A DNA stretch of 64,000 nucleotides, from positions 1-64,000 of the forward strand of contig CAITVK010000114.1 of NCBI GenBank assembly GCA_903895845.1, given 5' to 3'. Shown piece by piece: positions 4,049 to 26,838 of the stretch. The DNA is from an uncultured Chitinophagaceae bacterium (GTDB lineage Bacteria > Bacteroidota > Bacteroidia > Chitinophagales > Chitinophagaceae). Made by a program: the position numbers and the translations under genes. The notes beneath the pieces are model-generated. The model was not told the DNA's origin. It did no database searches and was given only the letters and a program-made list of their open reading frames with translations. Every line of letters starts with the position of its first letter. Within the stretch, counting starts at the first letter, position 1.

Positions 4049-4057
4049 ACAACAAAA

Positions 4058-5905: not shown

Positions 5906-5916
5906 GATTGTCTTCT

Positions 5917-9804: not shown

Positions 9805-10043
9805 TTGCAAAGGCGTAAAATAATTCTTCTCCAAATTCTTTCCTCCCAATCCCAAACATATCCCATATCTTGCCGCCAAGCGAGGAAAAGGGGTTCAGAA
9901 GTTGGTAATGCGCTATTGCCAACAAACAGTCTTTACCAATTAAACTTTTGCTCGTGCCGCATCAATTTCATTATCATTCAGTTAGATATCCCCTGAGGTC
10001 GATAGGTCGGCTCACAGGTTTCGAGGGTGTAAGGGAATGAAAC

Positions 10044-10245
10044 GTACTCCGTACCTCATAAATCGTACTGCGTACCTCATAAATCGTACTGCGTACCCCA
10101 TAAATCATACTGCGTACCCCATAAATCATACTGCGTACCCCATAAATCGTACTCCGTACCTCATAAATCGTACTGCGTACCCCATAAATCGTACTGCGTA
10201 CCCCATATATCGTACTGCGTACCTCATAAATCGTACTGCGTACCC
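10044..10245. repeat. Array D: ten 21-bp tandem repeats
   Basis: The core GTACTGCGTAC (variants GTACTCCGTAC and ATACTGCGTAC) starts at 10044, 10065, 10086, 10107, 10128, 10149, 10170, 10191, 10212 and 10233: ten copies in exact 21-bp register. The two GTAC halves are separated by 3 bp, the same half-site geometry as array A, but the sequence is unrelated. The 10-bp spacer is mostly CCCATAAATC with T/C changes. It lies 88 bp before the ATG of the frameshifted FN3-like gene. Confidence 0.95.
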
Positions 10246-10332
10246 CCAGTGAATACTTTTCTTTTTTATAAACTTCCACCGCCGCGCTTAAAATATCATT
10301 AAAAAGAATTAGTAAATTATAAAACAAATTTT

Positions 10333-10967
10333 ATGAATCAGAATAGAGCAATTGAAGATTATACTGGTAAAAAAATGATGAAATAGTAACCATCGCAACA
10401 TCTGCAATTGCAGGATTAACTACGAACTCTAATTTTACATTTATGACTCAATTAACCGAGTTGGTTTCTTCAGTTTCTACCTACTCCACCAAACTTGGGC
10501 TGGTAGCAACTGGCGGATTAACTGCGGTAACGGCAAAGGATACCGCCAAAGGAGGGGTAGAAACCAAGCTCGCAGTTGTGGCAGTAGCTGTAAACTTGCA
10601 GGCAAATGGAGATTTGATCAAGCTGCAATCTAGCGGATTGCCTTTGGTAAAATTGCCTGTTCACAACAATATGGGCGTGCCAGCAAACTTTAGGGTTGTG
10701 CGCACAAACATTGCTGGCGATATGCTTGTGAGTGTGGACAAACCTATTTATGGCACGCATGGAACCATATTTGCTTTTTGGAAACCTTCTTTAGGCCCTA
10801 CTCCTGCCAACATCAACGATTGGTTTTTCCGTCATAGCAATGGGTTGAGTTTTAATATCACGGGTCTTACGCCCAATACGTCCTATCCGTTTGCAGCCGC
10901 CTACAAAGGCAATGATGGCGAAGCGTTTGTGTGGACGGCGATAATGACAAAATCTGCGGGAGACTAG
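10333..10967 (+). pseudogene. FN3-like protein gene, frameshifted in an A7 tract
   Basis: ATG 10333 opens a 17-codon frame (MNQNRAIEDYTGKK...) that stops at 10384-10386. One extra A in the seven-A run 10369-10375 would join it to the downstream frame as GKKNDEIVTIATSAIAG and on to the stop at 10967, giving about 211 residues. The restored product matches the layout I recall for a Bacteroidota family with an N-terminal helical part and a C-terminal fibronectin-III-like part (NITGLTPNTSYPFAAAYKG). The frame from ATG 10443 alone (174 residues) would lack the conserved N-terminus. It may be a pseudogene, a sequencing error, or expression by slippage. An upstream 21-bp array (array D) lies in its leader region. 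Confidence 0.65.
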
Positions 10968-11013
10968 CATTTAGTTATGAGTTATTAGATAGTAGATAAT
11001 AGTGTTTTAAAAG

Positions 11014-11047
11014 AAAAGCCCTTTCAAGAAATTGAAGGGGCTTTTTT
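11014..11047 (+). terminator. Rho-independent terminator after the FN3-like gene
   Basis: AAAGCCCTTTCAA and TTGAAGGGGCTTT pair with one mismatch around a short GAAA loop and are followed by a T-run. It separates the FN3-like gene from the mraZ promoter region. Confidence 0.8.
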
Positions 11048-11180
11048 ATTGATTTTATTTATATGCTAACGACTATCTACTTTATTTTTTCATCTTTTAG
11101 TGATCAAAAACTAATATCTACTAACTAATATCTACTATCTCCTTCCCAAATTCTTAATAATTCACACTCTTTGACAGCGG

Positions 11181-11292
11181 TTATCCACACTTATCCACAG
11201 CCTATTAACAGATAAAAAACAGTTAACCCAAATAAAATCCCTTGAAACATAACACTATATTGAATTGTAGCCCCAAAACCCTCTGTGGATAA
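11181..11292. promoter_or_regulatory. Cluster of three perfect DnaA boxes
   Basis: TTATCCACA occurs at 11181-11189 and 11191-11199 (same strand, 10 bp apart, one helical turn) and in reverse (TGTGGATAA) at 11284-11292. A one-mismatch box (TAATTCACA) lies just upstream near 11158-11166. The flanks are AT-rich. The site is in the 412-bp spacer upstream of mraZ. It may be part of a replication origin or a DnaA-dependent regulatory site for the division cluster. dnaA itself is not in the window. Confidence 0.7.
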
Positions 11293-11320: not shown

Positions 11321-11354
11321 GTGGGAAAAAGTGTTATTTTGTGTCATAAAGTGG
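11321..11354 (+). promoter_or_regulatory. MraZ operator: four GTG repeats at 10-bp spacing
   Basis: GTGGG (11321), GTGTT (11331), GTGTC (11341) and GTGGT (11351) are exactly 10 bp apart. Two of them extend to AAAGTG[T/G], the box reported for mycoplasma MraZ; the GTGGG unit resembles the TGGGN boxes of E. coli MraZ. The last repeat ends 26 bp before the mraZ ATG. This is the arrangement expected for autoregulation of the dcw cluster by the octameric MraZ ring. Confidence 0.8.
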
Positions 11355-11379
11355 TAATAATAAAACTTAATTAACGCAA

Positions 11380-11829
11380 ATGGCATTTTTTCACGGTGAA
11401 TATGAGGCAACAATAGATGCGAAGGGTCGCTTCTTGCTGCCTGGTGCCCTGAAAAAGCAATTTGAAGAAGGTGAAAATAAGTTTATGCTTGCCCGTGGAT
11501 TCGAAAAATGCGTTACTCTTTACCCCATGAAAACCTGGGAAAGCATCATGGAGAAGTTTAAAAAGCTGAACCAGTTCGATAATAAAGTAAGAGAATTCAC
11601 CCGTTTGTTTTTGGGTGGTGCTACCGAAATAGAATTGGACAGTGCAGGAAGAATGTTGATGCCTGCTACCTTAAAAGAATATGCATCCATCACCAAAGAT
11701 GTAACCATTAACGCAGTGATTGACCGCTTTGAAATATGGGATTCAACCAAATATAAACGATTGTTTGAGGAAGTTTCGCCTAAGGAATTCAGCGATTTAG
11801 CCAATGAGGTCATGTCGGGAATTCAATAA
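11380..11829 (+). CDS. mraZ: Transcriptional regulator MraZ
   Basis: 149 residues made of two SpoVT-AbrB-type halves. The first has GEYEATIDAKGRFLLP (about 5-20) and the second GATEIELDSAGRMLMPA (about 84-100); the DxxGR motif of the family appears in each (DAKGR, DSAGR). MraZ forms a ring that binds tandem boxes upstream of its own gene; such boxes are visible at 11321-11354. It is the first gene of the division/cell-wall cluster, 46 bp before rsmH. Length and position are standard. Confidence 0.95.
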   Translation: MAFFHGEYEATIDAKGRFLLPGALKKQFEEGENKFMLARGFEKCVTLYPMKTWESIMEKFKKLNQFDNKVREFTRLFLGGATEIELDSAGRMLMPATLKEYASITKDVTINAVIDRFEIWDSTKYKRLFEEVSPKEFSDLANEVMSGIQ

Positions 11830-11875
11830 AAAACAAGGAGGGGTTTATTATCTGATTGAATAAAGAATAAAAAAA

Positions 11876-12814
11876 ATGGCAGACAACGATTCAATAGATA
11901 ATACAAGCGACACAGTGTATCATGTTCCGGTTTTGTTTGAAGAGGTGTTGGAGGGACTAGATATAAAGAAGGAAGGGGTGTATGTGGATTGTACGTTTGG
12001 AGGTGGTGGACATAGCCGGGGGATCATTGATAGGTTGGGTGAAAAAGGCAAACTAATCGCATTTGACCAGGATGCAGATGCGGTTAAAAACATACCTGCG
12101 GATGAACGGGTTTTGTTTGTGCCACAAAACTTTAGATATATACAACGCTTTTTGAGGTTATATAAAATTGGTCCGGTAGATGGGGTGCTGGCAGATTTGG
12201 GAGTGAGTAGTCACCAGTTTGATGAAGGCGAAAGAGGGTTCTCCATCCGGTTTGATGGTCCGCTCGATATGCGGATGGATCAACGAGAAACACTAACTGC
12301 CGCAAGCATCATTGCCAATTACAGCGAAGGGAAACTGCATTTGTTGTTCGAACAGTTTGGGGAGGTGAGTAACTCCAGGACTTTGGCAAAGCACATTGTA
12401 GACGCCAGGAAACAGACACAGGTGCAAACTATCCTTCAATTTAAAGCGATGATTGCGCCGGTGGTAAAAGGGAATCCTAATAAATACCTCGCTCAGGTGT
12501 TTCAGGCATTGCGGATTGAGGTAAATGGTGAGATGGAAGTGCTGAAAGAGATGTTGTTGCAACTGAATGAAGTGGTAAAAGTGGGCGGACGAGTGGCCAT
12601 CATCACCTTTCATTCCTTAGAAGATAGGTTGGTAAAACAGTTCTTTAAAAATGGAAGTTTCGAAGAGGAAGTAGATGATAATCCTTTTGTTCAAACGATA
12701 AAAGAACAGAAATGGCGGTTGGTAAACAAAAAGCCTATCACTGCAACAGATAAAGAATTGAAGGTGAATAAGCGGAGTAGAAGCGCGAAGTTGCGGGTAG
12801 CGGAGAAGTTATGA
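11876..12814 (+). CDS. rsmH: 16S rRNA (cytosine-1402-N4)-methyltransferase RsmH
   Basis: 312 residues. The family signature HVPVLFEEVLEGL is at about 18-30 and the SAM-binding VDCTFGGGGHSRGII at about 38-52. DLGVSSHQFDEGERGFS (about 104-120), LDMRMD and the C-terminal KPITATDKE...RSRSAKLRVAEK are all canonical. It methylates N4 of C1402 in the ribosomal decoding centre. It is the second gene of the cluster, as in most bacteria, and its end is followed 21 bp later by the ftsL start within a short GAGTTATGAGT-type repeat. Confidence 0.96.
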   Translation: MADNDSIDNTSDTVYHVPVLFEEVLEGLDIKKEGVYVDCTFGGGGHSRGIIDRLGEKGKLIAFDQDADAVKNIPADERVLFVPQNFRYIQRFLRLYKIGPVDGVLADLGVSSHQFDEGERGFSIRFDGPLDMRMDQRETLTAASIIANYSEGKLHLLFEQFGEVSNSRTLAKHIVDARKQTQVQTILQFKAMIAPVVKGNPNKYLAQVFQALRIEVNGEMEVLKEMLLQLNEVVKVGGRVAIITFHSLEDRLVKQFFKNGSFEEEVDDNPFVQTIKEQKWRLVNKKPITATDKELKVNKRSRSAKLRVAEKL

Positions 12815-12835
12815 GTGATGAGTTATGAGTAAAAA

Positions 12836-13189
12836 ATGGCAGAGCAAGTAGAAAATAATAAAAAGAAAAGTAGCAAAGGGAAACGCTTGAAGGGCTTTGG
12901 CGATTTCTTGTCGGAGGGAAGCTGGATCACTAAAAACCTGAATTATTTCTTGTTCTTGTCGTTGGTAGCAGTGGTTTATATAGCAAATGGTCACATGGCA
13001 GATAAGACCATCCGGAACATCAACAAGACCCAACAGGAAATTAAGGATTTGCAATACGAATATAAAACGCTAAAAAGCGAGGTGATGTATAAAAGTGAGG
13101 AAGCACAAGTGGAGAAAGCCGCAGCACCCCTTGGTTTGAAGATAACGAAAGACGTACCGCAACGGTTGCAATTGGAAAGAAGCAAATGA
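12836..13189 (+). CDS. ftsL: FtsL-like division protein
   Basis: 117 residues. A basic cytoplasmic N-terminus (about 1-35, many Lys), one transmembrane helix (about 38-58, LNYFLFLSLVAVVYIANGHM) and a periplasmic coiled coil (about 62-98), ending in the FtsL-type tail with LGLKITKDVPQ. FtsL pairs with FtsB and bridges FtsQ to FtsWI in the divisome. Sequence conservation of FtsL is low; the assignment rests on topology, the tail and the position between rsmH and ftsI. It matches the divergent FtsL family of Bacteroidota. Confidence 0.85.
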   Translation: MAEQVENNKKKSSKGKRLKGFGDFLSEGSWITKNLNYFLFLSLVAVVYIANGHMADKTIRNINKTQQEIKDLQYEYKTLKSEVMYKSEEAQVEKAAAPLGLKITKDVPQRLQLERSK

Positions 13190-13234
13190 GTTATAAGTTG
13201 TAAGTTATGAGTTATGAGTTATGAGTTATGAGTA
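13187..13234. repeat. Heptad-type GAGTTAT repeat
   Basis: About six consecutive units of AGTTATG/AGTTATA-type 7-mers overlap the ftsL stop codon and fill the first half of the 78-bp spacer to ftsI. The same word recurs in many spacers of this window (10974, 12815, 16872, 48085, 50219 and others). Confidence 0.85.
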
Positions 13235-13267
13235 AGCACAGCTCTTAAAACTTAATACGAAAGAAAA

Positions 13268-15403
13268 ATGGAAGTTAAAAAGGACATATTATGGAGAGTT
13301 TATCTCAGCTACATCTTCGTTGTAGTGATATGTCTTGTAATTTTTGGAAAAGCCGTTTACATCCAGCAGTTTCAGGGTCATTATTGGAGAAGTATGAGCG
13401 ATAGCCTTCACCAGAAGATAGAAAATGTAGAAGCTGAAAGAGGTACTATCTACAGTGAAGATGGTAAAATGCTTAGTACAAGTATCCCTCAGTTTGATAT
13501 TTATATAGATTTCTCTGCAGATGGATTAAGAGAGAAGAGTGGCGTTCGTTTCAGGGAAAATCTGGATAGCTTAAGTCTGTGTTTAGCCAATCTTTTTCAA
13601 GACAATACTGCGGAAGCCTATAAAAAGGAGTTGTTATATGGTTTCAAATCAAAAGATCGGGCATTTCTGTTCCGCAAGAATGTAAACTATCGCCAATATC
13701 AGGAATTAAAGACCTTTCCTTTAATAAGATTGGGTAGAAACAAGAGTGGTTTTGTATTTACCAATCGGACTATCCGTTTAAATCCGTACAAACTATTTGC
13801 TTATAGAACCATTGGCTTAGACAGAGATTCGGGTAAAGGTCAAAAGGTAGGTCTCGAACAAACCTATGATACCCTTTTAAAAGGAACAAGTGGTAAAAGA
13901 TTAGTCAGATACATTGCCGGTGGCGTTAGTGTACCTATTGATGATTACCAGATTGAGCCAGAAAATGGAAAAGACATCGTAACCACCCTAGATGTATTTA
14001 TTCAGGAAGTAGCAGAGAATGCTTTGATGAAGATGATGGTGAACAATGAAGCAGAACATGGTTGTGCTATCGTATTAGAAACCAAAACTGGCAAGATCAA
14101 GGCAATGGCTAACCTTGGTAAGTTCCCTATTAAAAAAGATGGACGAGATACAAGCATCTATACTGAAGATTTCAACTATGCCATTAGTCCTTCTGAACCA
14201 GGTTCAACATTTAAGCTGGCTACCATGATGAGTATGCTGGAAGACAAAAAGATTACGCTTCAAAGTCAGGTGAATTTGAATGGGGGCACTTGGGAAATAA
14301 ATGGAAAAACAGTATTTGATTCAGAGAAACATGGTCGCATGTTTGTATCTGCCAAAGAAGCCTTTGAGTTAAGTAGTAATGTGGGGTTGGCAAAGATGGC
14401 ATGGACTAGTTATAGCAGTAACCCTAGTCAGTTTATCAGGCACCTGCATCAAATTCACATGGATACCCTTACTGGAATCGACATTACGGGCGAACGTTGG
14501 CCAATTATTCATAGACCTGGAACAAAATATTGGGATGCCAACACCTTACCATGGATGGCTTTTGGCTATAACCTCGAAGTAACGCCTTTACAAACAGCCA
14601 CTTTTTACAATGCGGTAGCAAATGATGGCAAAATGATGCGCCCTTATCTGTTGAATGCAGTAAAAGACGAAGGGGAAGTAATTGATGCTCGCGAACCTTA
14701 TGTTGCCATTGATAAAATATGCAGCGACCAGACAATTAAGGATTTACATACTTGTTTGGAAGGCGTTTGTATAGAAGGAACTGCAGCGCAGTTGTTTAGA
14801 AATAATCCTTATAAAGTTGCTGGTAAGACAGGAACCGCGTTAGTGGCAAACGGTAGTCACGGTTATGCAGATGGAATATACCAAAGCTCCTTTGCTGGAT
14901 ACTTTCCTGCAGATAATCCCCAATATACTTGTGTGGTAGTTATTAAAAACAAGCCTCATGCCCTTCGTTTTTATGGTGCAGAAGTGGCCGGTCCTGTTTT
15001 TAAAGAAATAGCAGATAGGTTATACACGACTTATGTGCGCCAGAATAATTATCAGCCTAAACTGGTTAAGCCTGATAGCAGCTTTTTTAGTTATGTAGGA
15101 TTGAAACAGGAAATTAAGAAGATAGCAAACACCATTCAGCTTCCTTACAAAGACAATGATGGCAAAGAAGATGAAATGGTGAGTATGGATGGCAACAGAA
15201 ACCAGGTTTCTTTTTCTGAAAGAATGATAGGCAATACGTCTATGCCGTCATTAAGGGGAATGGGTTTGAAGGATGCCGTGGTTTTGTGTGAGGGAATGGG
15301 ACTGAAGGTGAAGATTAAGGGACGTGGTAAGGTAAGTAACCAATCTATAGCGGCAGGACAATTTATTGCTCACGGACAAGAACTAACTGTTGAACTGAAC
15401 TAA
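13268..15403 (+). CDS. ftsI: Division-specific transpeptidase FtsI (PBP3-like) with C-terminal PASTA domain
   Basis: 711 residues. One N-terminal transmembrane helix (about 10-30), the PBP dimerisation domain (about 50-220, with ERGTIYSEDG), and the transpeptidase domain with the three active-site motifs STFK (313-316), SSN (369-371) and KTGT (520-523). A PASTA domain (about 655-711, MPSLRGMGLKDAV) ends the chain. It cross-links septal peptidoglycan together with FtsW. A PASTA-bearing FtsI is usual in Bacteroidota and resembles SpoVD in Firmicutes. The start is ATG 13268. Its stop is 1 bp before murE, so the two are translationally coupled. Confidence 0.95.
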   Translation: MEVKKDILWRVYLSYIFVVVICLVIFGKAVYIQQFQGHYWRSMSDSLHQKIENVEAERGTIYSEDGKMLSTSIPQFDIYIDFSADGLREKSGVRFRENLDSLSLCLANLFQDNTAEAYKKELLYGFKSKDRAFLFRKNVNYRQYQELKTFPLIRLGRNKSGFVFTNRTIRLNPYKLFAYRTIGLDRDSGKGQKVGLEQTYDTLLKGTSGKRLVRYIAGGVSVPIDDYQIEPENGKDIVTTLDVFIQEVAENALMKMMVNNEAEHGCAIVLETKTGKIKAMANLGKFPIKKDGRDTSIYTEDFNYAISPSEPGSTFKLATMMSMLEDKKITLQSQVNLNGGTWEINGKTVFDSEKHGRMFVSAKEAFELSSNVGLAKMAWTSYSSNPSQFIRHLHQIHMDTLTGIDITGERWPIIHRPGTKYWDANTLPWMAFGYNLEVTPLQTATFYNAVANDGKMMRPYLLNAVKDEGEVIDAREPYVAIDKICSDQTIKDLHTCLEGVCIEGTAAQLFRNNPYKVAGKTGTALVANGSHGYADGIYQSSFAGYFPADNPQYTCVVVIKNKPHALRFYGAEVAGPVFKEIADRLYTTYVRQNNYQPKLVKPDSSFFSYVGLKQEIKKIANTIQLPYKDNDGKEDEMVSMDGNRNQVSFSERMIGNTSMPSLRGMGLKDAVVLCEGMGLKVKIKGRGKVSNQSIAAGQFIAHGQELTVELN

Positions 15404-15404
15404 C

Positions 15405-16868
15405 ATGCAAACACTACAAAACATATTATACAAAGTGCGTTTGCAGCAGGTAGTGGGAAGCACAGCTACCACCGTGTCGTCTATAGCCATAGATAGTCGC
15501 AAGGTGGAAAAAGATTCGGTGTTTGTTGCCATCAACGGGGTACAAAGCAATGGTCATCTATTTATTGATAAGGCAATTGAAGCAGGTGCGATCGCTATCG
15601 TTTGCGAAACAATTCCATCGATAATACAAGAAAACATTACATACATCGAGGTAAAAGATGCAAGTGAAGCTGTTGCTTTGATGGCACACCAGTTTTATGG
15701 TGAGCCTTCTAGGAAAGTGAAATTAGTGGGCGTTACGGGTACCAATGGCAAGACAACCATTGCGACACTGCTCTTTAAATTGTTTAACCAGTTGGGTTAT
15801 AGTTGCGGATTAATCAGTACCGTTCAAAATCAGATAGGTACCACTATTATCCCTGCTACACATACGACCCCCGATGCAGTTAGTTTAAATAAGTTGCTGG
15901 CTGAAATGGTAAATGAAGGCTGCACCCACGTTTTTATAGAGTGTAGCAGTCATGCCATTCACCAGAAAAGGATTGCAGGGTTACAGTTTACGGGTGCATT
16001 GTTCAGTAACATCACCCATGACCACCTTGATTATCATAAAACCTTCGATGAATATATTAAGGTTAAGAAAAAATTCTTTGACGATTTGCCTTCCACGGCT
16101 TTTGCCATCACCAATGCCGATGATAAGCGTGGGATGGTGATGTTACAGAACACCAACGCCAAAAAGTACGCATATAGTCTCAAGACTATGGCTGATTTCA
16201 AAGGTAAAATCTTGGATAATGCCTTAACTGGTTTACAAATGATTGTAAACGAGATTGAGGTTCACTTCAGGTTGATTGGTGAATTTAATGCCTATAACCT
16301 GATGGCAGTTTATGGTGCAGCACTTTGTTTGGGAGAGGATAAGTACCAGGTGCTTACCGCCTTAAGTATGTTGACAGGTGCAGAAGGCAGGTTTGATTAC
16401 ATCATTAGTAGCCAACAAATCATTGGGATTATCGATTACGCCCACACGCCCGATGCTTTGGAGAATGTGTTGAGCACCATCAAGAAGTTGAGAAAAGGAT
16501 ACGAACAGATTATTACGGTAGTAGGTTGCGGTGGCGACAGAGACAAGACAAAGCGACCGATTATGGCACAGACGGCTTGCAACCTGAGCGACAAGGTTAT
16601 TCTTACAAGCGACAACCCAAGAAGCGAAGAGATTAGTGATATTTTGAAGGATATGGAAACGGGTTTGGATAGTGCAGCTAAAAGAAAATATATCTCTATT
16701 TCTGATCGGAAAGAGGCTATTAAAACGGCTGTAAGTCTGGCTAAGGAGGAGGATATTATCCTGATTGCGGGAAAAGGGCATGAGAAATACCAAGACATCA
16801 AGGGTACTAAATATCCATTTGATGACAAGGCGGTGTTGTTGGAGGTTTTCGAGATGTTGGGAAAGTAA
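15405..16868 (+). CDS. murE: UDP-MurNAc-L-Ala-D-Glu:meso-diaminopimelate ligase MurE
   Basis: 487 residues. The N-terminal UDP-binding domain includes IDSRKVEKDSVFVAI (about 29-43); the ATP-binding P-loop is GVTGTNGKTT (about 109-118). The C-terminal domain has the DNPR motif (in LTSDNPRSEE), the hallmark of meso-DAP-adding MurE rather than the lysine type, which predicts DAP-type peptidoglycan. GKGHEKYQDI near the C-terminus is also canonical. The cytoplasmic enzyme adds the third stem amino acid. The gene starts directly after ftsI (1-bp gap). Confidence 0.96.
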   Translation: MQTLQNILYKVRLQQVVGSTATTVSSIAIDSRKVEKDSVFVAINGVQSNGHLFIDKAIEAGAIAIVCETIPSIIQENITYIEVKDASEAVALMAHQFYGEPSRKVKLVGVTGTNGKTTIATLLFKLFNQLGYSCGLISTVQNQIGTTIIPATHTTPDAVSLNKLLAEMVNEGCTHVFIECSSHAIHQKRIAGLQFTGALFSNITHDHLDYHKTFDEYIKVKKKFFDDLPSTAFAITNADDKRGMVMLQNTNAKKYAYSLKTMADFKGKILDNALTGLQMIVNEIEVHFRLIGEFNAYNLMAVYGAALCLGEDKYQVLTALSMLTGAEGRFDYIISSQQIIGIIDYAHTPDALENVLSTIKKLRKGYEQIITVVGCGGDRDKTKRPIMAQTACNLSDKVILTSDNPRSEEISDILKDMETGLDSAAKRKYISISDRKEAIKTAVSLAKEEDIILIAGKGHEKYQDIKGTKYPFDDKAVLLEVFEMLGK

Positions 16869-16871
16869 AAC

Positions 16872-16973
16872 AGTTATGAGTTATGAATTATAAGTTATGA
16901 GTTTAAAGCAAAGAACTCATTCTTAATTCTTAAAAACTCATAATTCATAACTTATAACTCATAACTTATAATT
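16872..16973. repeat. Heptad repeats in inverted orientation (murE-mraY spacer)
   Basis: A left run of AGTTATGA/ATTATAA words (16872-16904) faces a right run of CATAACTTATAA words (16932-16973), so the spacer folds on itself as a long AT-rich hairpin. The right arm ends 6 bp before the mraY ATG, covering the ribosome-binding region. It belongs to the same family as the repeats at 13187, 50217 and 57410. Confidence 0.8.
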
Positions 16974-16979
16974 AAAAAG

Positions 16980-18293
16980 ATGGTTTATTACTTTTTTTAT
17001 TGGTTACATCAACAGTCGCACATTTCAGGGGCGGGGATGTTTCAATACATTACGTTCAGAGCGGCGTTGGCTATCATTTTCTCCCTGATAATCACCACTG
17101 TTTTTGGCAAAAAGGTGATTCTTTTTCTTCAGAAGAAGCAGATTGGGGAGAGTGTACGCGAACTTGGCTTGGCTGGTGAGAACTTGAAGAAAGGAACACC
17201 AACAATGGGCGGCATCATCATATTGATGGGTATATTAATCCCTACTTTATTGTTTGCAAACCTGCATAAAACCTATATCCGGTTAATGATTTTAACAACG
17301 GTATGGCTTGGGGTGATTGGTTTTATTGATGATTATCTAAAGATCTCTGCAAGAAAAAAGGCCTTGGCCAATGGCGGAACTTACAAGAAGAAAGACAGCG
17401 ATGGATTGGCAGGTAACTTCAAAATCTTCGGTCAGGTTGGACTAGGAATCATCATTGGAAGCACTTTATACTTTGCTAAAAGTGTAGAAGTGCAACGTGA
17501 AATCTATACACCTCAGCATGTAATAGCTGATTCCATCATTCAAAAAGGAGAAAAGCTGGTGGGAGATACAATAAGGATTTATGATGGAAAAGCACACCAC
17601 TTTGCACGAGTTAGAACGCCCATTACGACGATTCCTTTCGTAAAAAATCATGAATTTAACTATAGTAAACTCATCAGTTGGCTGGGTCCTGAAGCAGAAA
17701 AGTTCACTTGGCTTATCTATATCTTGGCTGTTACTTTCATCATCACGGCTGTTTCCAACGGAGCCAATCTCACCGATGGTTTGGATGGTCTTGCAGCTGG
17801 AGTGAGTGCCTTGATAGGTATTTGTTTGGGGGTTTTTGTTTACGTAAGTAGCAATATCCGTTTTGCCGAATACCTCAATATTATGTACATCCCCAACTCG
17901 GCTGAATTAAGCGTTTTCATTGGAGCTTTTGTGGGTTCTTGCATCGGATTTTTGTGGTACAACGCGTTCCCAGCACAGGTTTTCATGGGCGATACAGGTA
18001 GTTTGGCTTTGGGAGGAATCATTGCTTCGTTGGCCATCATCGTTCGGAAAGAATTGTTGATTCCGATTTTCTGCGCCATCTTTTTAGTAGAAAATTTAAG
18101 TGTGATTATTCAGGTTAGTTATTTTAAATACACCAAGAAAAAGTATGGGGAGGGACGAAGAATCTTCCTGATGAGTCCATTGCACCACCACTATCAAAAG
18201 AAAGGTTTCCATGAAAGTAAAATAGCGGTGAGGTTTTGGATTGTGACCCTGATTTGTGTGGTGTTTTCGATAATTACTTTGAAAATCAGGTAA
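16980..18293 (+). CDS. mraY: Phospho-N-acetylmuramoyl-pentapeptide transferase MraY
   Basis: 437 residues, longer than the common 360 because of an insertion at about residues 165-225 between membrane helices, a usual feature in Bacteroidota. Polytopic. Diagnostic motifs: [11 protein letters not shown] (about 72-82), the catalytic-loop acidic pair in [19 protein letters not shown], and the C-terminal [14 protein letters not shown]. It transfers phospho-MurNAc-pentapeptide to undecaprenyl phosphate, making lipid I at the inner membrane. The ATG is directly preceded by the heptad-repeat hairpin. Confidence 0.96.
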
Positions 18294-18303
18294 ATGACAC
18301 TCA

Positions 18304-18497
18304 TTTTAATCCGGATTAAAATGGCTTTTTCTGGGTTAAAAAAGGTAGAATGGAGGGATAAAAAGGCATTATTACGGTAGAAAAGTTCTTTGTGGGTGAT
18401 TAAAGGGTTATTACTGAATTAGAATAGTCTTTTAAAGGGGGTTAAAAGGGGTAGGTTTTTCAGGATTCCTATTTTAATCCGCATTAAAATGGCTTTA
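18304..18497. repeat. Array B: decayed 21-bp array framed by two palindromes
   Basis: The spacer between mraY and murD begins and ends with near-identical 20-bp palindromes (ATTTTAATCC with its mirror GGATTAAAAT; second copy GCATTAAAAT) each followed by GGCTTT, at 18303-18322 and 18471-18490. Their TTAAAATGG words start at 18316 and 18484, exactly 8 x 21 bp apart. Between them TTAAAA/TAAAAAGG-like words recur near 18336, 18358, 18378, 18400, 18420 and 18442, close to a 21-bp step. I read it as a degenerated member of the same array class. Confidence 0.7.
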
Positions 18498-18550
18498 ATT
18501 CAATGATAAAGAGCTTAAATCGTCAGAAATAGAAGAAAAAGAAATTATAA

Positions 18551-19981
18551 ATGGAAAAAAATGTTGGACATAATCAATTAGAGGCTCAACCTGCCACTTT
18601 AGGTGCGGAAGTGAGTACTAGTGGGCATCCATCAAAAGATAAGAAGCATAAATTGATAATACTAGGTGGCGGAGAAAGTGGGGTGGGTGCGGCAATGTTG
18701 GGAAAGAAGAATGGGTATGAAGTTTTTTTGAGTGACGGGGGGATTTTAAAGGATGGCTATAAGCGCGAACTGGTTGCAAATGGAATTGATTTTGAAGAAG
18801 GCGGACACACAGAAGCAACGGTTTTGTCGGCAGATGAAATAGTGAAAAGTCCGGGGATACCAGAAAAAAATGAACTGGTAAAAAAGATTAGAGCAAAGGG
18901 AATAAAAGTAATTAGTGAGATAGAACTGGCGTATCGTTTTAAGGGAGATGCGACTATTATCGCCATCACAGGGAGTAATGGAAAGAGTACAACAACAAGT
19001 TTGATATACCATATCTGCAAAAAGGCAGGATTGGATTGTGCTTTGGTTGGAAACATTGGTTATTCGTTTGCAAAACAGGTTGCAGAAGACCCAAAAGCGT
19101 TGTATGTGGCGGAAATAAGTTCTTTTCAGTTGGATGACATCGATCAGTTCAGACCCAATGTGGCGTTGTTGCTCAACATCACCGAAGATCATCTGGATAG
19201 ATACGATTATAAGTTCGAAAATTACATCAACAGTAAGTTTAGAATAATAGAAAACATGACGGTAGACGATTATTTTATTTACTGTGATGACGATGAGGTA
19301 ATAAAAAGTAAACTAGATACACTAACAATAAATACAAACAAGCTCCCATTCTCGATGAAGCACGAAGTAAAAAAAGGCGGTCACATGACAGGAGATCAAA
19401 TCCTCCTACGCATTCAAGAAGAACGCGTAAGTATGAGCATTTATGATTTCGCAATTAAAGGCAAACACAACATCTACAACACTATGGCAGCGGGCATTGC
19501 AGCATGTACAATCGGTATCAGAAAAGAGATGATACGCGAATCTGTTGGTGACTTCCAAGGGTTGGAACACCGCGCAGAACACGTTGCAACCATCCGTGGC
19601 GTGGAGTTTATCAACGACAGTAAGGCGACCAACGTAAACAGTACGTGGTATGCTTTGGAAAGTCAGGAGCGTCAGGTGGTATTGATTTTGGGTGGTCAGG
19701 ACAAAGGCAATGATTACAGTATCCTCGACGAATTGGTGAAGGAAAAAGTGAAAGCCATTGTTTGCCTAGGGAAAGATAGCAGCAAAATTGTGAAGCATTT
19801 TAAGGACATCGTTCCTGCTATCCGTGAAACAAGTGATATTGAAACCTGTGTACGTGCGTGTTTTAAGATGGCAACGAAGGGAGACGTTGTTTTATTGAGT
19901 CCTGCTTGTGCAAGTTTCGATTTATTTAAAAATTACGAAGAAAGAGGAAGGCTGTTTAAGGCAGCAGTGAGGGAACTGTAA
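18551..19981 (+). CDS. murD: UDP-MurNAc-L-alanine:D-glutamate ligase MurD
   Basis: 476 residues. The Mur core begins at KLIILGGGESGVGAA (about 35-49), has P-loop AITGSNGKSTTTSL (about 139-152) and ends with LLSPACASFDLFKNYEERG, the MurD C-terminal signature. It adds D-Glu to UDP-MurNAc-L-Ala in the cytoplasm. The first ~33 residues are an extra, low-complexity segment absent from typical MurD; the DNA encoding residues 13-20 resembles a REP-like element seen also in murG and murC. No ATG lies closer to the core, so the extension is probably translated. Confidence 0.95.
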   Translation: MEKNVGHNQLEAQPATLGAEVSTSGHPSKDKKHKLIILGGGESGVGAAMLGKKNGYEVFLSDGGILKDGYKRELVANGIDFEEGGHTEATVLSADEIVKSPGIPEKNELVKKIRAKGIKVISEIELAYRFKGDATIIAITGSNGKSTTTSLIYHICKKAGLDCALVGNIGYSFAKQVAEDPKALYVAEISSFQLDDIDQFRPNVALLLNITEDHLDRYDYKFENYINSKFRIIENMTVDDYFIYCDDDEVIKSKLDTLTINTNKLPFSMKHEVKKGGHMTGDQILLRIQEERVSMSIYDFAIKGKHNIYNTMAAGIAACTIGIRKEMIRESVGDFQGLEHRAEHVATIRGVEFINDSKATNVNSTWYALESQERQVVLILGGQDKGNDYSILDELVKEKVKAIVCLGKDSSKIVKHFKDIVPAIRETSDIETCVRACFKMATKGDVVLLSPACASFDLFKNYEERGRLFKAAVREL

Positions 19982-20102
19982 TTATTTTGAATTTTATATT
20001 TTAAATTCTGAATGAAAGGTAAGAATTTAAGACTAAATGTTCGGAGCGATGGAAGCTGTTTTAAAGTAAAATTTAAAACACAAAATTTAAAACAACAAAA
20101 GA

Positions 20103-21416
20103 ATGACAGATACTTTATTCTCACAGATGCCCACCATACAGGGGATGCGCAGCCAACTGGCACTGCGGACGCGTGGAGACAAGTTTATCTGGGCAATTGT
20201 GGTGTTGTTGGCGTTGATATCTGTGATGGTCGTGTATAGTGCCACGGGGTCGCTTGCCTACAAGATGAATAAAGGAAATACAGAAATCTATTTGTTTAAG
20301 CAGCTGGCATTTATGCTGATTGGCTTATTCATCATCTACTTTTTACACCGGGTTAACTATAGTATTTACAGCAAAGTAGCGTGGATATTGTTTCTTACGG
20401 CTATCCCTTTCCTGATTTATACGTTATTCTTTGGAGCTAAAATAAATGAAGGGAGCAGATGGATTCGCTTACCAATAATCAATATGACAGTACAAACGAG
20501 TGACTATGCTAGGCTCGCTTTGTTTATGTATATCTCGAGGGTTTTGAGTAGAAAACAAGAGGTAATTAAGAATTTTAAAGAAGGCTTTTTGCCGATAATC
20601 ATACCAGTAGCGGTCGTTTGCGTATTGATTGCGCCAGCAAACCTTTCTACAGCATTGTTGACGGGGGCCACCTCCTTATTGCTGATGTTTATAGGGCGTG
20701 TAAGCTTCAAACACATCTTGTTGGCAATAGGTGTAGCGGCAATACCAATTGGTTTATTGATTTCAGTGGCGGTGTTGACACATAAAAACAAACCCGACAC
20801 AGAATTGGTAGGGGAAAATGTAAAAGAAGAAAAGTCAAAGGGACTGATGGTTCGTGCTGGAACATGGATAAAGCGGGTGCAAGATTTCATATATGCAAAG
20901 AATGAGGATGTGCCATATCAGGTGCAACAATCAAAGATTGCTATTGCAAATGGAGGGATATTGGTAGGACTTGGACCAGGCAATAGTCGACAAAGAAACT
21001 TTCTGCCACACTGTTATTCCGACTTTATATATGCCATTATCATTGAAGAATATGGTTTGTTGGGAGGGGCATTTATAATGATTGTCTACTTGATTTTCTT
21101 ATTCAGGGGTATACGGATTTTCAGAAAGTGTCCGTATGCATTTGGAGCTTTTTTAGCGTTGGGACTCAGCTTTACATTGGCAATTCAAGCCCTTGCAAAC
21201 ATGGCAGTATCGGTAAATATTGTTCCGGTAACGGGGGTGACGCTGCCGTTGGTGAGTATGGGAGGAAGTTCGTTTCTGTTTACGTGTATGTCCATAGGCA
21301 TCATATTAAGTGTAGCAAGAAATGTAGAAATAACGGAAGGAAAGGTGGAACCAGAGAGTGTTTTGATGGATTCACCCACCACTAAAGAAGGAGAAACGGC
21401 AGTTGCAACAGCGTAA
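20103..21416 (+). CDS. ftsW: Septal peptidoglycan glycosyltransferase FtsW (SEDS)
   Basis: 437 residues with about ten transmembrane helices, beginning GDKFIWAIVVLLALISVMVVYSATG (signature at about 25-49, quoted only in part here by its ends GDKFIW and VYSATG). SEDS motifs visible: NEGSRWIRLP (about 116-125), a periplasmic loop, KSKIAIANGG-type QSKIAIANGG and the terminal GVTLPLVSMGGSSF. It polymerises lipid II at the septum with FtsI as partner. It has a ~25-residue hydrophilic N-terminus. It sits 121 bp after murD and 47 bp before murG. Confidence 0.95.
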   Translation: MTDTLFSQMPTIQGMRSQLALRTRGDKFIWAIVVLLALISVMVVYSATGSLAYKMNKGNTEIYLFKQLAFMLIGLFIIYFLHRVNYSIYSKVAWILFLTAIPFLIYTLFFGAKINEGSRWIRLPIINMTVQTSDYARLALFMYISRVLSRKQEVIKNFKEGFLPIIIPVAVVCVLIAPANLSTALLTGATSLLLMFIGRVSFKHILLAIGVAAIPIGLLISVAVLTHKNKPDTELVGENVKEEKSKGLMVRAGTWIKRVQDFIYAKNEDVPYQVQQSKIAIANGGILVGLGPGNSRQRNFLPHCYSDFIYAIIIEEYGLLGGAFIMIVYLIFLFRGIRIFRKCPYAFGAFLALGLSFTLAIQALANMAVSVNIVPVTGVTLPLVSMGGSSFLFTCMSIGIILSVARNVEITEGKVEPESVLMDSPTTKEGETAVATA

Positions 21417-21463
21417 AGACGGATGACAATCCGTATTGAAATGACAAAAAGAAAAAATTAATA

Positions 21464-22606
21464 ATGAGTACATCATCTTTCAATAAGCAAGTTTCAAATC
21501 CTCCTTCAGGGGCGGAAAAGAACCGTGTAGTTATTGCGGGTGGTGGAACGGGTGGACATATTTTTCCAGCAATTGCGATTGCCAATGCCCTAAAAAAGAT
21601 AAACCCTTCAGTGGAAATACTTTTTATCGGGGCAAATGGAAAGATGGAAATGGAAAAAGTACCGCAAGCAGGATATGAAATAAAAGGATTGACGATAGCG
21701 GGTTTTAATAGGAGTTCTTTGATTAAAAATATTGGTCTTCCCTTCAAGTTGATAAAAAGCTTTTGGGAGGTTAGGAACATTTTTAAAGTCTATCAGCCAA
21801 CAATAGTGATTGGTGTGGGGGGGTATTCCACTTTTCCTGTGTTGAAATATGCTCAAAGCAAGGGAATACCCACTTTTATTCATGAAAGCAACTCTTTTGC
21901 TGGAAAAAGCAATGTTTTGTTGGGGAAGAATGCGACTAAAATATTTGTAGCCACCGATGGAATGGATCAGTTTTTTCCTAAAAGCAAGCTACTTATTACT
22001 GGTAATCCGGTAAGAAGTGTTATTGCTGATTCATCCATCAAAAAAGAAGAGGCAATTGCATTTTTTGGGTTGAAACAGGATAAGCCTACGGTATTAATTG
22101 TTGGAGGAAGCTTAGGTGCCAAAAGCATTAATGAGGCATTGGTTGGTTCATTGGAAAAGATAGAAAAGGCTGGGTTGCAATTGATTTGGCAAACAGGAAA
22201 GACCAACGCCGATAAGTACAAACAGGCGGCAAATGGGAATGATTCTATCTGGATAAATGAATTTATTACCCGCATGGAAATGGCTTATGCGGCTGCCGAT
22301 ATCGTGATAAGTCGCTCGGGTGCTATGGCGGTTACTGAATTGTGTGTGGTGGGCAAGCCTTCCATCTTTATTCCGTATCCATTTGCAGCCGAGGACCATC
22401 AAACGGCAAATGCGATGGCGTTGGTAGAAAAGAAGGCGGCGTTACTGGTAAAAGATAGTGAGGTGAATGATAAGCTGGTAGCTACTTTAATTACTTTATC
22501 AACAGATGAAGCTTTGAAAAGTGAGTTGAAGACAAACATCAGCGCTTTGGCAATTACCAATGCAGATGAAGTGATAGCGAGGGAAGTTTTAACCCTTAAC
22601 CCCTAA
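21464..22606 (+). CDS. murG: UDP-GlcNAc:lipid I N-acetylglucosaminyltransferase MurG
   Basis: 380 residues. The glycine-rich donor/acceptor loop VVIAGGGTGGHIFPAIAIA starts near residue 22 and the second loop VVGGSLGAKSIN near 205; RSGAMAVTELCVVGKPSIFIPYP is the C-domain signature. It converts lipid I to lipid II at the inner membrane face. Typical MurG begins a few residues before the first loop; here about 21 extra residues (MSTSSFNKQ... NPPSGAEKN) precede it, and the DNA for NPPSGAE matches a REP-like word (CTCCTTCAGGGGCGG). Confidence 0.95.
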   Translation: MSTSSFNKQVSNPPSGAEKNRVVIAGGGTGGHIFPAIAIANALKKINPSVEILFIGANGKMEMEKVPQAGYEIKGLTIAGFNRSSLIKNIGLPFKLIKSFWEVRNIFKVYQPTIVIGVGGYSTFPVLKYAQSKGIPTFIHESNSFAGKSNVLLGKNATKIFVATDGMDQFFPKSKLLITGNPVRSVIADSSIKKEEAIAFFGLKQDKPTVLIVGGSLGAKSINEALVGSLEKIEKAGLQLIWQTGKTNADKYKQAANGNDSIWINEFITRMEMAYAAADIVISRSGAMAVTELCVVGKPSIFIPYPFAAEDHQTANAMALVEKKAALLVKDSEVNDKLVATLITLSTDEALKSELKTNISALAITNADEVIAREVLTLNP

Positions 22607-22652
22607 AGGAAAATTAGAAAAGGGCGCGTTCTTTTATATAAGTTATGGATAA

Positions 22653-22855
22653 AGTGTATAAGTTTTACGACAGAAGCTATAGCTTTTATGACGAAAGCTG
22701 CAACTTATGCGATAAAAGCTAAAGCAAACGTGGCAAAAGCTATAGCTTATGCCACAAAAGTTTAAGCTTAAGCGACAAAAGCTTTAGCTTAAGTGACAAA
22801 AGCTATAGCAAATGCGATATAAGTTAAAGCTTTTATGACGGAAGTTAAAGCTGTA
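22653..22855. repeat. Array C: nine or ten 21-bp tandem repeats
   Basis: AAGC/AAGT-initiated cores (AAGCTATAGCTT, AAGCTTTAGCTT and variants) start at 22674, 22695, 22716, 22737, 22758, 22779, 22800, 22821 and 22842, an exact 21-bp step, with a worn unit at the left edge near 22653. The core is palindromic (AAGC...GCTT) and the spacer is TATGCGACA-like. It fills most of the 303-bp gap between murG and murC, interrupting the dcw cluster. Confidence 0.92.
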
Positions 22856-22909
22856 GGGGTTAACAGGATAAGGTATTAAAGGATTTGAATAAGAAAAGAA
22901 AGGATATAA

Positions 22910-24295
22910 ATGAATGACAACAATAAAAATATCGGCGACTTATTAAACTCCCCTTCAGAGGCTGGGGTTGTCTATTTCATCGGTATCGGTGGGATAGGGA
23001 TGAGTGCGCTTGCCAGGTATTTTCATTCGAAAAAGTATAAAGTAAGTGGGTATGATAGAACATCTACCGAGCTTACAAGGACTTTGGAGGCGAGTGGGAT
23101 AGCTATTCATTACGAAGAAAACCTTGATCTGGCTCCAAAAGATGCAAAAGTGGTGGTGTATACACCTGCCATTCCTGCCAATCATGCCGAACTGGTTTAT
23201 TACCAGCAACATGGCTATAAAGTGGTAAAGCGTAGTGATATTTTGCAATGGATTACCGAAAGTTCTTTCAATATATGTGTGGCTGGTACCCATGGTAAAA
23301 CCACTACCACCACCATGACGGGGCATATTTTACGTCATAGCGGTTATGGTTGTAATGCGTTTTTGGGTGGTATTGCTGCCAACTATCAAACGAACTTCTG
23401 GAGCGATACGAACAATGTGGTAGTAGTAGAAGCGGATGAATATGACCGAAGTTTTTTGAAATTAACGCCCGATGTTGCCATCATTACCGCCATGGATGCA
23501 GACCATTTAGATATTTATGGAACGCCTGAGGATTTTGGGAATGCCTTCATCCAGTTCTCTGAAAAGATAAAAGCTGGTGGGCTATTGATAAGTAAATATG
23601 GATTGGAAAGAACGGATGAATTTGCAGTAAGTAATCACCTTACCTATAGTTACAGTGATGAAAGGGCATCTGTTTATGCAAAAGAAATCAAGGTAGTAAA
23701 TGGTTCTTACCTGTTTGATGTGGTATATAAAGGGGAAACTATCAGCGACATCACTTTAAACATGGGTGGTTTACACAACATAGAAAATGCAGTTGCTGCT
23801 ATTAGCGTAGCAAAGTATCTGGGAATTGAGGAAGAAAAGATTAAGGCGGCTGTGGCAGATTTTAAAGGGGTAAAGAGACGATTTGAATACATTGTTAAGA
23901 CAGAAAAGCAGGTGCTGATTGATGACTATGCACACCATCCCGAAGAATTGAGGGCTTTGATAAGTGGCATCAGAAGTTTGTATGGAACGGAGAAGTTGAC
24001 GTTGATTTTTCAGCCACATCTCTACTCCAGAACCAATGATCAGGCAGCAGAATTTGGGGTGAGTCTGAGTATGGCAGATGAAGTTGTTCTACTTCCAATT
24101 TATCCTGCAAGAGAATTGCCTGTTCCGGGGGTTACAAGCGAGATGTTGTTAGATAAAATGACCATTACCAACAAGCAAGTGCTGGGTAAAAAGGAAATGG
24201 TAGCGTGGGTTAAAGCTAATAAGCCGGGTTTGATAGTAATGGCAGGTGCAGGGGATATAGATGTGTTGGTGGGCGAAGTGAAGAACGTTTTGTAA
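22910..24295 (+). CDS. murC: UDP-N-acetylmuramate:L-alanine ligase MurC
   Basis: 461 residues. VYFIGIGGIGMSALARYF begins near residue 21; the P-loop is VAGTHGKTTTTT (about 122-133), and EADEYDRSFLKL and LIDDYAHHPEELRA are diagnostic for MurC. It joins L-Ala to UDP-MurNAc in the cytoplasm. The first ~19 residues (MNDNNKNIGDL then LNSPSEAG) look like a small leader plus a REP-like element (CTCCCCTTCAGAGGCTGGGG) read in frame. The stop is 6 bp before ftsQ. Confidence 0.96.
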   Translation: MNDNNKNIGDLLNSPSEAGVVYFIGIGGIGMSALARYFHSKKYKVSGYDRTSTELTRTLEASGIAIHYEENLDLAPKDAKVVVYTPAIPANHAELVYYQQHGYKVVKRSDILQWITESSFNICVAGTHGKTTTTTMTGHILRHSGYGCNAFLGGIAANYQTNFWSDTNNVVVVEADEYDRSFLKLTPDVAIITAMDADHLDIYGTPEDFGNAFIQFSEKIKAGGLLISKYGLERTDEFAVSNHLTYSYSDERASVYAKEIKVVNGSYLFDVVYKGETISDITLNMGGLHNIENAVAAISVAKYLGIEEEKIKAAVADFKGVKRRFEYIVKTEKQVLIDDYAHHPEELRALISGIRSLYGTEKLTLIFQPHLYSRTNDQAAEFGVSLSMADEVVLLPIYPARELPVPGVTSEMLLDKMTITNKQVLGKKEMVAWVKANKPGLIVMAGAGDIDVLVGEVKNVL

Positions 24296-24301
24296 TAGGG
24301 A

Positions 24302-25318
24302 ATGATTAATACGTTATACGATAAAACAATTAAGTTGAATTGGAAGAAAACGATAGTACAGGTTTTATGGGTGCTCATGGGAGTGGGTACTATCGTGCTG
24401 TTTGGTGCGGCAATGATTATTAAAAATCACAAGGCTTGTGCGGACATAAAAGTGGAGATTACTGGTGCGGATGAACATTTGTTTATAGATGAAAAAGATG
24501 TGAAGGATCTGATTAACGAGCATTCTATACTTGAAAATAAAAAGGTAAATCAGATTGATTTAAAAGCGATTGAAACAGAGTTGGAAAAAACGCCTTGGGT
24601 AAAGAATGCAGAATTGTTTTTTGATAATAACCAAGTGTTACAAGTTAAGATTCAGGAAAGACAACCGGTTGGGAGGGTTTTTACGGCTGAGGGTAGCTCT
24701 TTTTATGTGGATAGCAGTGGCGTAAGGCTTCCATTAAGCGATAAGTTGAGTGCAAGGGTACCCATGTTCACCAACTTCCCTAGCGACAAAGAAGTGATGG
24801 CATCATCGGATAGTGAATTATTGAGAGGCGTGGTAGATATGGGCAAGTTTATTACAGCCGACAGCTTCTGGATGGCACAGATTGCACAGGTTTACATTAC
24901 GCCACAAGGAACATTTGAACTGACGCCAACAGTTGGTAACCAAACCATCATTTTTGGGGATGCAGATGATGTAGATAATAAGTTTAATAACCTCTATACC
25001 TTTTATAAGAAAGCGTGGTTGCAAAACGGAATAAACACCTATTCGAAACTGGATGTCCGTTTCGATAATCAAGTGGTAGCGGTAAAGAGAGGGGCAGAAA
25101 TAAGTGTCGCGGATACTGCAAAAGCAAATGCAGCTATTCAGGCATTGATGATTGACAAAAGAAGTTTCACGGCAAAGGCTACAATGCCAGCGAAAGATTC
25201 AACGGTTCCAGTAAAGGAAAAACAGGAAAATAATTTAAAAACTAGTTTGTCTTCTAATAATAAAAGAAGAAGTAATACGTTCTCTATTGTGAAGAAGTCT
25301 AACCAAATAAAAAAGTAA
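24302..25318 (+). CDS. ftsQ: Division protein FtsQ
   Basis: 338 residues: short basic N-terminus, one transmembrane helix (about 19-39), then a POTRA-like region (about 48-115: ADIKVEITGADEHLFIDEKDV, TPWVKNAELFFDN given here only by its ends) and a beta-rich FtsQ domain to about 265. A low-complexity Lys/Ser/Asn tail (about 295-338) follows. FtsQ holds FtsBL and links early and late divisome proteins. Conservation is low; position between murC and ftsA and the TM-POTRA layout support the call. Confidence 0.88.
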   Translation: MINTLYDKTIKLNWKKTIVQVLWVLMGVGTIVLFGAAMIIKNHKACADIKVEITGADEHLFIDEKDVKDLINEHSILENKKVNQIDLKAIETELEKTPWVKNAELFFDNNQVLQVKIQERQPVGRVFTAEGSSFYVDSSGVRLPLSDKLSARVPMFTNFPSDKEVMASSDSELLRGVVDMGKFITADSFWMAQIAQVYITPQGTFELTPTVGNQTIIFGDADDVDNKFNNLYTFYKKAWLQNGINTYSKLDVRFDNQVVAVKRGAEISVADTAKANAAIQALMIDKRSFTAKATMPAKDSTVPVKEKQENNLKTSLSSNNKRRSNTFSIVKKSNQIKK

Positions 25319-25348
25319 TTAGATTGACATTGAATTAAAAATAAGTTT

Positions 25349-26764
25349 ATGAGTATTAACGAGTCGCCCATTATTGTAGGATTGGATATTGGAACAACAA
25401 AGATTGCCGTAATAGCAGGACGTAAGAATGAGTTTGGCAAACTAGAAATCCTTGGTTTTGGACGCTCGGAAAGTAATGGCGTGCAGCATGGTAAGGTATT
25501 GAATATCGATCATACCATCAAGGCAATTCATCAAGCAATAAAGAATTGTGCAGACAATGCCCCCGATTTAGAAATCAATGAGGTTTATGTAGGCATCGCG
25601 GGTCATCATATAAAAAGCATACAAACTCGTGGCGATTTAGTAAGACAAGACCCTGAATTAGAGATTCAACGTCATGAAATTGAAATGTTAATCAGTAATC
25701 AGAAGAAAACTTTTATCCCTGCGGGAGATGAAATTATCGAAGTGATTCCACAAGATTATACTGTAGATAATATCACCAATATTAAAGACCCGATTGGATA
25801 CAATGGGGTTAAGGTGGGTGCCAACTTTCACATCATTACAGGTGATAGAAATGCGATTAAGAATATTAAACGTGCCATTGAAAAAAGTTCTTTAAGTACC
25901 AAAGACCTTGTGTTACAGCCGCTTGCTAGTGCAAGTGCTGTGATGTCTGAAATTGATATGGAAGCAGGTGTTGCCATATTGGATATAGGTGGTGGAACGA
26001 GTGATTTAGCCATTTTTCAAGATGGAATCTTAAGGCATACTGCCGTGATTCCTTTTGGGGGAGAAAACATTACCAACGATATAAAAATTGGATTGGGTGT
26101 TTTGAAGAATCAAGCAGAAGCATTGAAAGTTCAGTTTGGAAGTGCTTTGGCTAATGAAGCCAATGCCAATGCTTTTATTACGATTCCTGGCTTGAAAGGA
26201 ATGCCTGCAAAGCAAATAAGTGTAAAGAATCTTGCTGAGATTATTCAAGCAAGGATGGAAGAGATATTGAATTTCGTTTGCTTCGAACTAAAGAAAGTAG
26301 GCTTAGATGCACGCACGCTTTTGGGAGGACTTATCATTACAGGTGGTGGGTCGCAGTTAAAACATTTGATACAACTAAGTGAATATACTACAGGCTTAAA
26401 TGCACGCATTGGTCTTCCTAACGAACACCTTGCACCTAATCATTTAGAGGAATTAAAGAAGCCGATGTATTCTACTTGTATCGGATTAATTCTAAAAGGA
26501 TTTAACGACTACGATAATCAGGTAAAACGCTATAACGATGCAAATCCCGTTAAGATAGAAAGAAAAGTAAAGGTTGTGGAAGTAGCTGCGACACCTGAAG
26601 CAATTGTTGAGGAAGTGCCGGTTGCCGAAGAGACAACAAAGAAAGGAAAGAAGAAAGCAGTGGAGACAACACCTCAACCAATTGAAAAAAGCAAATTCTG
26701 GGATAAGTTCAAAGGAAGCATTATTGATTTATTCCAGGAAGAAGAAGATAAAATTATAAAATAA
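25349..26764 (+). CDS. ftsA: Division actin homologue FtsA
   Basis: 471 residues. The ATP-binding phosphate-1 motif GLDIGTTKIAVI is at about 11-22, phosphate-2 AILDIGGGTSDLAIF at about 208-222, and adenosine-motif GLIITGGGSQLKHL at about 328-341. A linker (about 400-450, Glu/Val/Thr/Lys-rich) leads to a C-terminal amphipathic helix (KSKFWDKFKGSIIDLF) suited to membrane binding. FtsA tethers FtsZ to the membrane. It is 30 bp after ftsQ and 74 bp before ftsZ. Confidence 0.95.
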   Translation: MSINESPIIVGLDIGTTKIAVIAGRKNEFGKLEILGFGRSESNGVQHGKVLNIDHTIKAIHQAIKNCADNAPDLEINEVYVGIAGHHIKSIQTRGDLVRQDPELEIQRHEIEMLISNQKKTFIPAGDEIIEVIPQDYTVDNITNIKDPIGYNGVKVGANFHIITGDRNAIKNIKRAIEKSSLSTKDLVLQPLASASAVMSEIDMEAGVAILDIGGGTSDLAIFQDGILRHTAVIPFGGENITNDIKIGLGVLKNQAEALKVQFGSALANEANANAFITIPGLKGMPAKQISVKNLAEIIQARMEEILNFVCFELKKVGLDARTLLGGLIITGGGSQLKHLIQLSEYTTGLNARIGLPNEHLAPNHLEELKKPMYSTCIGLILKGFNDYDNQVKRYNDANPVKIERKVKVVEVAATPEAIVEEVPVAEETTKKGKKKAVETTPQPIEKSKFWDKFKGSIIDLFQEEEDKIIK

Positions 26765-26838
26765 ACGAATTGGCCGATATGGTCGATATACCCAGAAAAG
26801 AAAACAAATATTTAATCACTAAGTAATCCGCTCGTACC

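Follow-up and report, generated by a model that had tools for sequence, protein, structure and literature searches.

The mraZ/dcw promoter of Escherichia coli is repressed by MraZ. In Mollicutes the MraZ repeats read AAAGTG[T/G], according to the passage of PMC8475190 on that promoter. The promoters of Bacteroidota have a -7 consensus, TAnnTTTG, positioned from -12 to -5 (as given in the promoter passage of PMC9723704). DnaA is an established transcription factor, which activates or represses depending on the site and on its nucleotide state. In Caulobacter crescentus, DnaA has been proposed to activate ftsZ and so to link replication to division. In E. coli, DnaA boxes lie upstream of ftsZ (within ftsQA) without a role in ftsZ transcription, and in Bacillus subtilis DnaA binds at ftsL. 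These statements on DnaA follow the relevant passages of PMC8203912. The coupling of replication initiation to division in bacteria is still an open question.

The locus described here lies in a window of 64,000 nucleotides, the whole stretch of DNA that was analysed, from the draft genome of an uncultured Chitinophagaceae bacterium. It carries DnaA boxes at the head of a complete division and cell wall (dcw) cluster.

DnaA boxes upstream of mraZ

The original prediction was of three perfect DnaA boxes upstream of mraZ, two of them in tandem 10 bp apart and one inverted, that might mark a replication origin. An exact-copy search for TTATCCACA recovered all three, spanning 11181-11292 (Table 1), and they are the only exact copies in the window. 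Shuffled 64 kb windows averaged 0.79 copies, and three copies anywhere were found in 2/100 shuffles. The draft genome (4,012,082 bases, 138 contigs) has 30 exact copies in total, and only the three upstream of mraZ have another within 200 bp. A relaxed search for direct pairs (TTWTNCACA, gap 0-30) returned 4 places genome-wide, with two perfect boxes only upstream of mraZ. The register of the degenerate box CTATTAACA is occupied in relatives by TATTCACA/AATTCACA.

Two side observations were made. The reversed control pattern has 55 copies in the draft genome, where TTATCCACA has 30 exact ones, a hint at avoidance of strong DnaA boxes at stray sites. The window also contains five tandem arrays with unrelated repeat units and a 21-bp period, equal to two helical turns, at 1377-1583, 10043-10246, 22668-22832, 38054-38252 and 54738-54937.

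Table 1. Features of the mraZ upstream region and of the dcw cluster in the window.
Feature	Position	Strand	Basis or remark
Intrinsic-terminator-like hairpin	11012..11047	+	Consensus scan; 1 found vs shuffle mean 1.4, weak by itself
Weak direct DnaA-like box TAATTCACA	11158..11166	+	23 bp ahead of first perfect box; register also used in relatives
Perfect direct DnaA box TTATCCACA	11181..11189	+	Exact match
Perfect direct DnaA box TTATCCACA	11191..11199	+	Exact match; 10 bp past first perfect box
Degenerate direct box CTATTAACA	11202..11210	+	Read from sequence; 11 bp past second perfect box
Perfect inverted DnaA box TTATCCACA	11284..11292	-	Exact match; 96 bp ahead of mraZ start codon
Candidate MraZ operator: four GTG repeats, one every 10 bp exactly (GTGGGAAAAAGTGTTATTTTGTGTCATAAAGTGGT)	11321..11355	+	Sequence; near-invariant in relatives
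Promoter-like element TTATTTTG	11334..11341	+	One mismatch to Bacteroidota -7 element TAnnTTTG
mraZ, division/cell wall cluster repressor	11380..11829	+	TIGR00242, 129.4 bits vs cut-off 98.35
Remaining dcw cluster: rsmH, ftsL-like, PBP/ftsI-like, murE, mraY, murD, ftsW, murG, murC, ftsQ-like, ftsA, ftsZ	11876..28767	+	NCBIfam, Pfam

Gene context and candidate promoter

The predicted change of gene orientation was found, with the main ORFs at 268-8964 on the minus strand and those at 9333-30355 on the plus strand. Profile searches (NCBIfam and Pfam) placed the entire dcw cluster, mraZ to ftsZ, on the plus strand from the mraZ ATG at 11380 to 28767, headed by the DnaA boxes. Its penicillin-binding protein is of the class B type and the mraY product is an MraY-type transferase. 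The FtsW, PBP and FtsQ-like (POTRA) matches fell under curated cut-offs and the FtsL_2 match above. The terminator-like hairpin closes the upstream gene (10443-10967), which puts the boxes within the regulatory region of mraZ itself.

About 28 bp past the inverted box lies AAAGTGGGAAAAAGTGTTATTTTGTG, which is almost letter-perfect across Chitinophagaceae and contains both the GTG repeats and TTATTTTG. This segment looks like an MraZ operator combined with a promoter. The tandem GTG-type repeats lie over the candidate promoter, and mraZ heads the dcw genes as in MraZ-controlled dcw promoters, the operator being assigned by resemblance and the promoter by analogy. A promoter at TTATTTTG would place the transcription start near 11346. 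The inverted box would then be centred near -58, a usual position for an activator. No clear -33 element was evident in the window upstream of mraZ.

Conservation across Chitinophagaceae

Twelve mraZ loci were retrieved for an initial comparison; one begins inside the gene and two are from Bacteroidales. All nine of the remaining loci, from named Chitinophagaceae/Bacteroidetes metagenomes, carry at -95/-96 an exact copy of the inverted box and at -187 to -199 a direct box (at most 1 mismatch), and the DNA between the boxes has diverged. The element was absent upstream of the two Bacteroidales mraZ loci compared.

The direct-inverted pair TTNTCCACA-N70..100-TGTGGATAA occurred in 90/294 family genomes, a count that is a lower bound, being based on an exact pattern, and that includes some chance pairs. 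When such loci were excised, 29/30 directly preceded mraZ. The exact inverted box followed by the exact promoter motif, 24-34 bp apart, was found in at least 156/294 family genomes (exact patterns, hence a lower bound), and the reversed-pattern control gave 0.

A sample chosen independently of the boxes was drawn from the family search for MraZ, which found the protein in 115/117 genomes; it consists of the 30 best MraZ matches and is not a random draw. In these 30 best-scoring loci, at least one direct ATNCACA box was present within 320 bp upstream in 30/30, and two or more in 25/30 (mean 2.43). An inverted box (at most 1 mismatch) was located at -85 to -97 in 27/30; the other three loci (L179, L194, L198) have no inverted box recognisable within one mismatch. 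In the loci sampled outside the family the direct boxes were missing. A phylum sample of 30 mraZ loci, reduced to 25 by removal of 5 from Chitinophagaceae, had no direct box (0/25) and only one inverted-type box between -105 and -70 (1/25, L203).

The tandem pair TTATCCACANTTATCCACA was rejected as the conserved unit. It was present in only 4/147 family genomes, and three of these sites do not adjoin mraZ. What is conserved is a looser, phased array of direct boxes together with the inverted box.

Geometry of the array

The 150 bp upstream of the inverted box were examined in 62 distinct sequences. They contain 2.03 direct boxes per sequence, compared with 0.066 after shuffling, and 0.016 boxes per sequence in the opposite orientation, so the array boxes nearly all point one way. 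Successive direct boxes (n=67 spacings) are most often 10 bp (23) or 11 bp (23) apart, followed by 20-23 bp (12) and 12 bp (3), and box positions have an 11-bp periodicity with a vector length of 0.755. The periodicity and the 10/11-bp spacings put the direct boxes on much the same side of the helix. The distance from the start of the inverted box to the mraZ ATG is 95 bp (24 sequences), 96 bp (19) or 94 bp (10) in 53/65 anchored sequences. The boxes are conserved in register with the candidate promoter, as in a DnaA-regulated promoter.

Near-perfect dyads were seen between the array and the inverted box in three loci (L181, L185, L182), with a palindrome arm of 16 bp in L181. A spacer palindrome was rejected as a general feature; the best inverted-repeat score was 5.75 vs 5.29 for shuffled DNA (62 sequences).

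Replication origin, titration site or another regulator

GC skew at the third codon position of the plus strand was sampled in four complete relatives (G018, G237, G229 and G055). If the element were an origin, the skew should switch there; instead, the switch sits at nadA in G018, G237 and G229. In G018 a negative skew gives way to a positive one at about 2.376 Mb, and the mraZ element, at 2.764 Mb, is within the positive arm. The gap upstream of nadA in this genome (G018:C1:2375480-2375900) has 7 strong DnaA boxes and 12 within one mismatch. In G237 the skew goes from -0.068 to +0.109 between the 20-kb stretches flanking nadA and is positive around mraZ. G229 changes from -0.059 to +0.061 at nadA, with mraZ in the negative arm, and is less clean, as a stretch at 0.15-0.77 Mb is near zero to positive. 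The skew of G055 is not clean either: the positive arm is broken by stretches of negative skew at 5.1-5.6 Mb. In this genome 2.98 Mb separate the mraZ element from nadA, and the skew on both sides of the element is positive. None of the four genomes has a change of skew sign at mraZ, and in all four dnaA is at least 1 Mb from nadA. A skew switch and DnaA-box clusters far from dnaA recur in the region upstream of nadA, by ppiD or near mnmG (L141, L142, and L034/L033 of G102, G002). The intergenic region upstream of nadA is probably the chromosomal origin in several Chitinophagaceae, and its position far from dnaA matters for the zero point and for ori/ter ratios in genomes of this family. In genus g12, direct and inverted DnaA boxes were seen to be densely clustered at G233:C243:5929-6173 and G111:C1:1057924-1058029; in G111 the cluster is on C1 and mraZ on C15. 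These clusters are possibly the origin of that genus.

The part of the original prediction that named a replication origin was therefore not borne out. An origin has in its favour that this is the densest cluster of perfect DnaA boxes in the draft genome, that it occupies an AT-rich intergenic region, that gene strand and raw GC skew both switch near 9-11 kb, and that the nadA-ppiD region, the marker of oriC in relatives, is poor in good boxes here. But the same element precedes mraZ in G018, G237 and G229, where the switch at nadA is 0.39, 0.94 and 1.26 Mb away and the skew keeps its sign across mraZ, and as a class the element was rejected as an origin for this reason. In the draft genome the skew (plus strand, third position) to the left of the element is +0.025, not negative, a weak signal over 138 contigs that does not decide the origin alone, and five close relatives have no clearly negative left flank (0.00, 0.10, -0.05, 0.01, 0.12). 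The change in raw skew at 11 kb goes along with the dcw genes and weakens past 29 kb, as an effect of gene strand would. The draft genome also retains mnmG...nadA-[580 bp AT-rich]-ppiD on contig C60 (gap 6334-6914); this gap is syntenic with the origin of relatives and AT-rich, with few recognisable DnaA boxes. A move of the origin to mraZ in this genus alone is unlikely, and we consider it most improbable that the element is the oriC of the source organism.

A DnaA-titration or nucleotide-exchange locus of the datA/DARS kind, parked before mraZ, would also appear as a tight, high-affinity, non-coding cluster of DnaA boxes outside oriC, which is what was found. To our knowledge, datA, DARS1 and DARS2 of E. 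coli are not fixed in promoter register. The inverted box, in contrast, keeps throughout the family a distance of about 95 bp to the mraZ start and a near-constant spacing to the promoter motif, and such a register, which titration does not need, counts against a pure titration site. The element also stays with mraZ although the distance of mraZ from the skew origin varies over the range given above. Titration loci are known in E. coli, and boxes in promoters may titrate too (in the passages of PMC12371093 on these loci). We regard a pure titration locus as unlikely, and titration may be an additional role or a side effect of the boxes. Binding of the repeats by a regulator other than DnaA, one with a DnaA-box-like site, is very unlikely. 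Compared with oriC boxes, those of the array are less constrained at the first three bases, yet their letters match those of the boxes at the nadA-upstream origin of G018 (ATNCACA core, T-rich 5' end), a comparison in which only the flanking letters are informative as both sets were gathered by the ATNCACA core. Moreover, the draft genome encodes a DnaA with a normal domain IV, and this DnaA carries near its C terminus the motif GGRDHTTVIHS, which we take to be the box-recognition signature.

Proposed control of the division cluster by DnaA

Control of the division cluster by DnaA, raised in the original prediction as an alternative, has good support from the position and phasing of the boxes and from their conservation throughout the family, with DnaA binding itself predicted from sequence. 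The fixed promoter register, helical phasing and shared orientation favour a regulatory complex over a storage site. We consider it likely that this is a composite mraZ/dcw promoter region regulated by DnaA and conserved across Chitinophagaceae. That DnaA activates mraZ-ftsZ rather than represses it seems only somewhat the more probable of the two directions.

In the mechanism that we propose, the phased direct array (two perfect and two weak boxes) would lie ~140-185 bp upstream of the putative transcription start and be occupied cooperatively by DnaA. Array-bound DnaA would contact, or loop to, the inverted box near -58, where DnaA would stimulate RNA polymerase. Output of mraZ-ftsZ would then track the level or nucleotide state of DnaA, and MraZ, the first product, would repress its own promoter through the candidate GTG-repeat operator. 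In the full proposal, the DnaA of Chitinophagaceae would activate the whole dcw cluster directly and in step with the cell cycle, MraZ autorepression on adjacent DNA would oppose it, and one promoter would thereby tie production of FtsZ and the peptidoglycan enzymes to the initiation of replication. This proposal is tentative, and we give it less credence than activation as such.

The family is a natural test case, as nearly all examined members keep the phased array and inverted box in register with the dcw promoter, and the two sites allow a clear two-site mutation experiment.

Comparison with known systems

In the full-text literature that was searched, which has most subscription journals outside its scope, no paper was found to describe mraZ of Bacteroidota as controlled by DnaA, or a conserved composite promoter of DnaA and MraZ that serves the whole dcw cluster. 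Matches to "mraZ" in PMC7561715 were to the author name Mrazek. DnaA boxes in the promoters of division genes are already known, and the element upstream of mraZ is a variant of these.

The best-known precedent, the boxes upstream of ftsZ in E. coli, counts against regulation by DnaA. As a small cluster of DnaA boxes away from the origin, the element resembles datA, DARS1 and DARS2 of E. coli (as these are described in the passages of PMC12371093 concerned). With E. coli and B. subtilis it shares DnaA sites in or near the dcw genes; in those organisms, however, the sites are internal to the cluster or at ftsL, whereas here they precede mraZ. The Caulobacter crescentus ftsZ promoter is similar in having DnaA boxes in the promoter of a division gene, but there they serve ftsZ alone, while here they head the entire mraZ-ftsZ cluster, as a phased array plus an inverted box beside a candidate MraZ operator (all three organisms as covered in the division-gene passages of PMC8203912). 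The MraZ-repressed mraZ/dcw promoters of E. coli and of Mollicutes share with the element GTG-containing direct repeats in 10-bp steps; DnaA boxes are not described in the passage of PMC8475190 on the Mollicutes promoter, and in the one family studied here they are an upstream addition.
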